A DNA stretch of 34,118 nucleotides from a bacterium (lineage in GTDB: Bacteria; Patescibacteriota; Minisyncoccia; CAIUEV01): assembly GCA_021779255.1 (NCBI GenBank), contig JAJYBC010000006.1:1-34118 (forward strand). The letters are read 5' to 3'. The notes beneath the pieces were generated by a model, which saw only the letters and a program-made list of their open reading frames with translations, did no database searches and was not told the origin of the DNA. The position numbers were made by a program, and so were the translations under genes. Below are positions 117 through 30,871 of the stretch, piece by piece; position 1 is the stretch's first letter, and the number at the start of each line of letters is the position of its first letter.

Positions 117-203
117 TCTTTTTCTGGCTTTTTATTTTTTTTCGAGTGGAGAAGTCACCCTGCCGGGGGCACACTCTCAAAAAAATAAAAAGCCAGAAAA
201 AGA
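117..203 (-). repeat. Conserved-loop/variable-stem hairpin element, copy 1 (inverted orientation)
   Basis: Arms 117-148 and 172-203 are complementary with 2 mismatches; the reverse complement of 149-171 is TGCCCCCGGCAGGGTGACTTCTC, identical to the loop of copy 2. Confidence 0.9.
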
Positions 204-28528: not shown

Positions 28529-29815
28529 ATGAAAAACAACAAAGAAATCAAAACGGTGACAGTTATCGGTATTGGCTACGTCGGATTACCTTTAGCTTGT
28601 GTTATTTCTCAGAAAAATTATCGTGTTTTCGGTCTTGATTTAAACGAAAAAGCCGTATCCTTGGTTAACCAAAAAATAGCCCCTTTCAAGGACGAATTTG
28701 TAAAAAAGATCTTGCCCCAAGCCAAGGTTAAAGCTACTAGCGATCCTTCTGTTCTCAAAAAAACCGATATAGTGATTATCTGTGTTCCCACTCCCGTTGA
28801 TAGTCGTCATTTGCCGGTTTTTAAGCCGTTAGAAAGCGCTGTCACTTCCATTATTAATAATTTTCAGAAAGGCGTGTTAGTCGTTGTTGAATCAACAATC
28901 AATCCGGGAGTTTGTGAAGAAATTGTTCTTCCCCTTTTTGAGAGGGCTGGTTACAAGGTCGGTCAAGATTTTTTCTTAGCTCACTGCCCTGAAAGAATTA
29001 ATCCCGGCGACCCTAAATGGAATGTTAGCAATATTAATCGTTGCGTCGGTGGAGTAACCAAAAAATGTCTGGACAAAGCGGTCAAATTTTATCGTTCCGT
29101 CATCAAAGCCACTATTACTCCGATGGAGTCAATCAAAGAAGCGGAAGCCACTAAAACGATTGAAAATGCTTTTCGAGATATTAATATTGCTTTTGTCAAT
29201 GAGTTGGCTAAGTCTTTTGACAAAATGGGTATTGACTTAAAAGATGTTATTAAAGGTGCCGCTACTAAACCTTTCGCTTTTATGCCTCACTGGCCCAGTT
29301 GTGGCGTCGGTGGCCATTGTATCCCCGTTGATCCGTATTATTTGATTGAAAAAGCCAGAAAAATTGGCTTTGAACACGATTTTCTTAAACTGGCTCGCCG
29401 CATTAATTCTAGTATGCCCAGATATACAATTAAAACTTTAGCTCAAGAACTCAATGAAATTGAAAGACCAGTCAAGGGCACTAGAATAGGTATTCTAGGA
29501 GTTTCTTACAAGGCCAATATTGATGATACTCGCGACGCTCCTTTCTTTGAAATCAAGAAAGAACTTCTGGAAAGAAAAGCTAAAATTGAAATTTTTGATC
29601 CTTACGCCAAAAAAGAAAACACCGTTGAATCTTGGTCGGAGTTACTTAAAAAAGTAGAAGTCTTACTTTTAGTAACCGGTCACCGAGATTTTTCGGCTAT
29701 TACACCTTTACTTTGTCGAAAAAATAACATAAAATTAGTTATCGACGGCATGAATTTTTGGGATAAAAAAGCTTTTGAAAAAGCTGGAATCAGATATAAG
29801 GGAATTGGAAGATAG
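28529..29815 (+). CDS. UDP-glucose/GDP-mannose (UDP-ManNAc) dehydrogenase family
   Basis: VTVIGIGYVGLPLACV, ESTINPGVCEE, HCPERINPGDP, ATKTIENAFRDINIAFVNELA, GVGGHCIPVDPYYL. Confidence 0.9.
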   Translation: MKNNKEIKTVTVIGIGYVGLPLACVISQKNYRVFGLDLNEKAVSLVNQKIAPFKDEFVKKILPQAKVKATSDPSVLKKTDIVIICVPTPVDSRHLPVFKPLESAVTSIINNFQKGVLVVVESTINPGVCEEIVLPLFERAGYKVGQDFFLAHCPERINPGDPKWNVSNINRCVGGVTKKCLDKAVKFYRSVIKATITPMESIKEAEATKTIENAFRDINIAFVNELAKSFDKMGIDLKDVIKGAATKPFAFMPHWPSCGVGGHCIPVDPYYLIEKARKIGFEHDFLKLARRINSSMPRYTIKTLAQELNEIERPVKGTRIGILGVSYKANIDDTRDAPFFEIKKELLERKAKIEIFDPYAKKENTVESWSELLKKVEVLLLVTGHRDFSAITPLLCRKNNIKLVIDGMNFWDKKAFEKAGIRYKGIGR

Positions 29816-29848: not shown

Positions 29849-29931
29849 TGTTTCTTGACTCCTCTTTCATTTTTAGTGTGCCCCCGGCAGGGTGACTTTT
29901 CCACTAAAAATGAAAGAGGAGTCAAGAAACA
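29849..29931 (+). repeat. Conserved-loop/variable-stem hairpin element, copy 3
   Basis: Perfect 30-bp arms 29849-29878 and 29902-29931 around loop TGCCCCCGGCAGGGTGACTTTTC (1 nt different from copies 1 and 2). Confidence 0.95.
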
Positions 29932-29947
29932 TATTTATTCAAATTAT

Positions 29948-30871
29948 ATGCTTTCCATCATCGTTCCTCTCTTCAACGAACAGGATAATGTCAAAAAACT
30001 CCATCAAGAAATTATGGAGGCTTTGAAGGATTTCTCCGAGCCTTTTGAAATTATTTTTATTAATGATGGCAGTACTGATGATACGTTGCAAAATTGTTTG
30101 GAGTTGAAACCACTCAAAATTATTAATTTTCGCCGTAATTTTGGTCAAACAGCCAGTTTGGACGCCGGTATTAAAGAGGCTAAAGGCGAGATTCTTATCA
30201 CTCTGGATGGAGATTTGCAGAACGATCCCAAAGATATTCCTCGTCTCATCAAAAAACTCAAAAAAGAAAAATTAGATATTGTTTCCGGTTGGCGTCGCCA
30301 CCGCAAAGATTCCCTTGGCAAAGTTTTTATCTCCAAAGGAGCGGAGACAATTCGCAAATATTTGATCAATGACGGTATTCACGATTCCGGTTGTACTCTT
30401 AAAGCTTATCGTCGAGAATGTTTTGAAAATATTGATTTGATGGGTGAAATGCATCGTTTTATTCCCGCCACTTTAGCTATCCACGGTTTTAAGGTCGGTG
30501 AATTGGAAGTTAACCATCGACCGAGATTGCACGGGGAAACCAAATATAATTATAAACGGACCGTCAAAGGTTTCCTGGATATGCTGGGCGTTTGGTTTTG
30601 GATGAAATACGCCGGTCGACCGTTGCATCTTTTTGGCGGTCTTGGTTTTTTTAGTTTTTTATTCGGTAGTTTTTTCTTAATTGGACTTTTTGTAGCTCGC
30701 TTTTTCTACGACTTTTCTCTTTCCAACAAAATATGGCCGCTTTTAGCTATTTTTCTCATTCTTATTGGCATTCAACTTTTTGTCTCCGGCTTAATGGCTG
30801 ATATATTGATTAAAGGTTATTATAAGGGTCGGCATATGAATTATACGATCGAAAAAATAGTGGAGAGATAA
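29948..30871 (+). CDS. GT2 glycosyltransferase (DPM/GtrB-like) with C-terminal TM helices
   Basis: MLSIIVPLFNEQDNV, FINDGSTDDT, ITLDGDLQNDPKDIP, RLHGETKYNYKRTV; track start 29855 lies inside the hairpin, ATG at 29948 preferred. Confidence 0.9.
   Translation: MLSIIVPLFNEQDNVKKLHQEIMEALKDFSEPFEIIFINDGSTDDTLQNCLELKPLKIINFRRNFGQTASLDAGIKEAKGEILITLDGDLQNDPKDIPRLIKKLKKEKLDIVSGWRRHRKDSLGKVFISKGAETIRKYLINDGIHDSGCTLKAYRRECFENIDLMGEMHRFIPATLAIHGFKVGELEVNHRPRLHGETKYNYKRTVKGFLDMLGVWFWMKYAGRPLHLFGGLGFFSFLFGSFFLIGLFVARFFYDFSLSNKIWPLLAIFLILIGIQLFVSGLMADILIKGYYKGRHMNYTIEKIVER

Follow-up and report, generated by a model that had tools for sequence, protein, structure and literature searches.

On the contig analysed here, we find three copies of a hairpin with a nearly invariant tip and a long stem that varies from copy to copy. 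The genome as a whole has 25 such copies, all of them between genes and with the two arms of each stem diverging in concert. On balance we favour reading this repeat (family A below) as a dispersed, palindromic, non-coding element that is recognised by its tip and whose stem is conserved only as a structure; we call it MITE-like because of its size and distribution. Known bacterial palindromic repeats have fixed ends and a variable interior, whereas here the arrangement is the inverse, and it recurs with another tip in a sister genus. No description of a conserved tip on a variable stem in bacteria was found in the open-licence papers searched. Such a tip on a drifting but paired stem is a natural experiment on selection versus template switching, and the repeat points to a factor that would recognise the tip, in a bacterium with a reduced genome.

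Copies in the window and in the genome

The window (the whole stretch of DNA analysed, 34,118 nucleotides) is contig C8 of a genome (G000) of 843,505 bases in 50 contigs, estimated to be 94% complete; its small size and low GC content are reminiscent of Patescibacteria. The copy at 117-203 has its left arm at 117-148, its right arm at 172-203 and, on the minus strand, a conserved 23-nt tip at 149-171 (TGCCCCCGGCAGGGTGACTTCTC). Paired positions add up to 320 and form 30 Watson-Crick pairs: a 25-bp helix (117-141 with 179-203) and the pairs GAGTG/CACTC (144-148 with 172-176) that close the loop. Positions 142-143 and 177-178, which lie between the helix and the closing pairs, form no standard pairs. 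The initial annotation had described the loop as the reverse complement of that at 874-896, closed by GAGTG/CACTC and with two unpaired positions beside the closing bases. The complementarity is indeed exact and the closing pairs are as described; the unpaired positions can be specified further as a tandem G-A/A-G mismatch on the TGCCCC strand, which is found in four copies in total. In DNA folds, a mini-hairpin (TGCC-CCC-GGCA) lies inside the tip at 161-171. This copy folds far better than dinucleotide shuffles on either strand, modelled as RNA or as DNA (z = -8.5 for the minus strand and -7.2 for the plus strand).

The second copy has a perfect 34-bp stem (840-873 with 897-930) around a plus-strand tip at 874-896, and the third a perfect 30-bp stem (29849-29878 with 29902-29931) around a plus-strand tip at 29879-29901, a CTTTTC variant that differs from the loop at 874-896 only by a T for a C. 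No chance match to the loop occurred in 100 shuffles, and none is expected. All neighbouring genes noted here are on the plus strand. A dCTP deaminase-like gene (PF22769) is found at 269-808, and a gene of the EPSP synthase family (PF00275; 953-2221), by inference MurA, starts 23 nt past the second copy. A UDP-glucose/GDP-mannose dehydrogenase gene (28529-29815) ends 34 nt ahead of the third copy, and a family 2 glycosyltransferase gene (29948-30871) starts 17 nt past it.

Across the whole genome, 25 copies are within two mismatches of the 20-nt core TGCCCCCGGCAGGGTGACTT; at the same threshold the core is absent from the 141 related genomes searched. A covariance model (R1, built from 23 copies) matches only this genome among 37, where it also picks up a degenerate copy (C6:23775) as well as a related hairpin (C48:33965). 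Counting the copy at C48:39466, whose loop is truncated and whose second arm is missing, the family comprises 25 well-formed copies and two defective ones, the degenerate and the truncated; every one of them lies in an intergenic gap. The unit is about 83-91 bp long, with a stem of about 27-34 bp and a near-invariant tip of about 32 nt that includes the first stem pairs. There are two loop subtypes, CTTCTC|CACT (23-nt loop) and CTTCGC|ACTC (22-nt loop).

The initial annotation suggested checking other loop copies for complementary flanks, and its description of a conserved loop on a variable stem holds genome-wide: flanks are complementary in 25 out of 25 copies (between 13 and 20 of 20 ungapped pairs, with a bulge accounting for the low values), and the check fails only in the truncated 26th (5 of 20). 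Random positions average 8.1 of 20. The same 18-mer is also found in eight contigs from unrelated genomes and three viral contigs, with flanks pairing at just 5-9 of 20; these 11 foreign matches, which have no stems, were rejected as homologues. Phage and plasmid records contain nothing that matches the family A loop. The shuffles and the foreign 18-mer controls rule out a chance origin, and an assembly artefact is ruled out as well: the stems differ between copies and the 25 copies are spread over many contigs.

According to simple gene calls made for this analysis, family A copies are in 14 co-directional, six divergent and three convergent gaps, similar to the genome (226/80/35), and the copies in co-directional gaps are sense in seven cases and antisense in seven, in line with the earlier suggestion that the element can sit in either orientation relative to genes. 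The two subtypes differ in this respect (seven sense and two antisense for the 23-nt loop, none and five for the 22-nt loop; probability about 0.02), a post hoc comparison of small numbers. An association with tRNA genes was considered as a main idea and dropped: only three copies have a tRNA gene nearby (counted within 150 nt), a number close to that expected from the proportion of tRNA gaps. By eye, a large serine recombinase-like gene is found at C7:26940-28745 (L058) in the same genome, beside a tRNA-Ser gene and one hairpin copy; this region may mark an integrated element.

Related hairpins, three-way junctions and operon gaps

A second family (family B) has five copies in the same genome (C16:4904-4978, C16:5586-5660, C14:19981-20055, C42:2714-2788 and C48:43226-43300; loci L061, L059, L110 and L084), with a 17-nt tip (GGGTTTGCTRCGCAAAA) on a variable stem of 29 bp. 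Family B and several family A copies are hosted by a larger three-way junction, which consists, in order, of an outer perfect stem, GAATTTC, the inner stem and a small hairpin TTGCCA-N-TGGCAA. The outer stem reaches up to about 18-25 bp and varies between copies; in four out of five family B copies it is clearly above shuffled controls. Two further junctions, at C33:926-1030 (L066) and around C27:1890-2000 (L099), have no conserved tip and carry palindromic inner stems that are nearly loopless. One of these two junctions is directly after the 16S rRNA gene and the other is beside tRNA-Ser.

Hairpins were scanned in partial sequence of G001, G002 and G004, 20 kb of G003 and 307 kb of G005. The sister genus G002 has 17 copies (L205-L221) with a different 23-nt tip (TGATTTTCYYRTAGRAAATCCCC) and stems mostly of 36-54 bp; they are intergenic and in both orientations, and 512 of 595 arm cells are paired, against 325±17 in the control. 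There are two exceptions: one copy (L210) has a stem of only 12 bp with a GC-rich palindrome in its right arm, and another is cut by a contig end. Eight copies in G001 (L140-L147) have a third tip (GCTTCGCCGCAGACGGCGAGC) on a stem of about 35 bp that is better conserved, and some of them carry uncompensated differences in the middle of the stem. Reading the sequences, we see that each of the four tips has a mini-hairpin abutting the stem on one side and an unpaired stretch on the other. Essentially no such hairpins are found in the 307 kb scanned of G005, a member of the same order.

Two gaps of the ribosomal-protein operon bear on how the copies arrived. The S17-L14 gap (296 nt) and the L14-L24 gap (324 nt) each hold one family A and one family B hairpin. 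The same gaps in seven relatives contain no A or B hairpins; they mostly measure 8-41 nt, with a maximum of about 150 nt in G001, where the gap has an unrelated inverted repeat. From sequence comparison these gaps look like empty sites and suggest insertion, at the level of genera rather than of strains.

Concerted divergence of the stems

Pairing is retained in stems that differ greatly in sequence. Over the first 31 arm positions of the 25 copies, 667 of 775 cells pair; when partner arms are exchanged between copies, 409±17 do (maximum 484 in 1000 exchanges). In a structural alignment 95.6% of cells are paired (70.0% when shuffled), and both sides have changed in 22 of 26 stem pairs. The count of doubly changed cells is 182, compared with 49 in the shuffled control, and sliding the partners destroys the signal. 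Loop identity is 92% (the one-base length difference between the subtypes being counted as a mismatch) and stem identity about 50%.

The initial annotation regarded the stem of about 32 bp as unrelated to those of the other copies. Its variability is evident, but "unrelated" is too strong: anchored stem identity over positions 6-28 is 49.6%, compared with 42.8±0.5% expected from composition, and the most similar copies share more than 80% of their stem pairs. A weak positional consensus remains: positions 19-22 form a patch rich in G/C, and the 5' arms are rich in T. Because of this consensus and of the copies whose stems are more than 80% alike, we consider the copies homologous and their stems diverged in concert; the persistence of the consensus also disfavours the idea that the stems were wholly copied from target DNA.

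Stems kept by stepwise compensatory mutation would also be expected of a structured RNA acting in transcripts, such as an RNase III or other processing site or a protein-binding hairpin, an explanation that we hold to be unlikely but that has several observations on its side. Stem covariation is strong, and related three-way junctions are found beside tRNAs and the 16S rRNA gene. Among uncompensated mismatches, G-U is more common on the TGCCCC strand (20 cells) than on the opposite strand (seven; two-sided probability about 0.02), although some of these cells are beyond the core stem, since the alignment could extend there. This bias and the tandem G-A mismatches of four copies on the same strand hint that it is the TGCCCC strand that folds, whether as DNA or as RNA. 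The orientation difference between loop subtypes, with the reservations given above, points the same way as an RNA role. A structured RNA, however, is expected to keep a consistent strand relative to transcription, and here the overall orientation is even and the gap types are as in the genome, though the tip is asymmetric and conserved. Many of the double changes are flips (A-T/T-A or G-C/C-G) that lack a wobble intermediate, the proximity to tRNA genes is confined to the three copies mentioned, and in the stretches searched none of the hairpins matches an Rfam family at its gathering score. The shortage of wobble pairs cannot separate DNA from RNA, because G-U is also scarce (4%) in the tRNA stems of this genome; we thus dropped it as proof of a DNA-level element.

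It is less probable still, and we would call it improbable, that the stems are mainly a mutational product, with template switching copying changes from arm to arm, no selection on pairing, and a tip that is conserved only through the youth of the copies. Template switching is known both to generate perfect hairpin stems and to repair them, and it can also turn spacers around (PMC8794818, PMC8604942). When the more similar copies are compared (copy pairs that are not independent), a changed pair is altered on both arms in 346 cases and on a single arm in 31, and in one of the closest pairs (C15/C6) five out of five changes are compensated. Youth, however, cannot explain tips that are 92% identical beside stems near the level of composition; a constraint on the tip is needed. 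The shortage of one-sided changes does not discriminate either, because tRNA stems, which are under selection, show a similar shortage (ratio of one-sided to two-sided changes 0.07 against 0.03).

Comparison with known repeats and a proposed tip-recognised element

The repeat behaves like a small non-autonomous mobile repeat, yet it lacks the defining features of MITEs and of REPs. Prokaryotic MITEs and palindromic intergenic repeats (ERIC, Correia/NEMIS, RUP and QMITE; PMC10969869) are likewise short, non-coding, intergenic and AT-rich, with tens of copies and stable stem-loops, and the many dispersed, wholly intergenic copies of family A match this description. The defining marks of MITEs, however, are target duplications and terminal inverted repeats that are conserved (PMC10969869), whereas here the ends (the stem) vary and only the centre (the tip) is conserved: the arms are complementary within a copy and about 50% identical between copies. 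Inspection of stem ends in several copies revealed no clear target-site duplication; the flanks are AT-rich.

The nearest in behaviour are the repetitive and double-hairpin elements of mitochondria, which are also putatively mobile, intergenic and clade-specific in compact genomes (PMC2800124). Those of sponge mitochondria have conserved stems and variable loops (PMC2800124), the reverse of the present case, where the tip is conserved and the stem variable.

REPs and REPINs mobilised by RAYT transposases are another class of dispersed extragenic palindromes (PMC3733652, PMC3116915), and the genome does encode two Y1 (RAYT-like) transposases, at C48:36618-36977 and C1:36487-36675 (L118 and L119); GTAG also precedes the small hairpin TTGCCA-N-TGGCAA in three out of five family B copies. 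We nonetheless consider it very unlikely that family A is such a repeat. A GTAG tag and a short stem of 5-13 bp characterise REPs (PMC3733652, PMC3116915), and stems of 27-34 bp with 22-23-nt tips are outside this range. A GTAG (or CGTC) tag is absent at the base of family A stems, and GTAG is found only in some family B junctions. The RAYT-like genes are accompanied by other, GTAG-tagged palindromes (AGACGGGTCTCAGACCCGTCT and GGGGCGTATTGCAATACGCCCC) and not by family A repeats, so they are not obvious mobilisers. A genome-wide search covering the Y1 transposase family (PF01797) identified no mobilising enzyme. That the copies are intrinsic transcription terminators with a common tip has next to no probability: they are strong hairpins in intergenic gaps, but their stems are not followed by a U-tract (3' flanks by inspection), some copies are found within the ribosomal-protein operon and others upstream of divergent genes, and a terminator has no need of a conserved, asymmetric tip.

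A conserved unpaired tip on a stem of free sequence is also a feature of CRESS virus origins and of attC sites. In contrast to these, the family A repeat was not found to be accompanied by a replication initiator, an integrase or cargo.

For the MITE-like, tip-recognised repeat that we favour, the following course of events may be envisaged. Every copy would have arrived by insertion of the repeat unit, and the tip would be a sequence-specific recognition signal for a trans-acting factor. If this factor reads the tip at the end of a hairpin, either in extruded DNA or in a single-strand intermediate, conservation would be confined to the sequence of the tip and the capacity to form a stem. Template switching between the arms during replication could help to hold their complementarity while the stem drifts. 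A broader proposal, possible but clearly more tentative, is that these hairpins represent a mobile-hairpin class in this bacterial family: the tip alone would give an element its identity, a host or element nuclease would read the single-stranded tip, the stem would be pure scaffold, and each genus would have swapped the tip (A and B here, others in G002 and G001).

Other repeats were seen in the same genome. The Y1 gene on C48 is also flanked by arrays, in opposite orientations, of a repeat of about 23 bp that resembles GGATGAATTTTGTATTGTTGTGC. In the window, a palindrome (GGGGGCAGGTCGCAACCTGCCCGTAC) at 2893-2921 resembles other GC-rich palindromes of the genome, e.g. that at C26:1-56.
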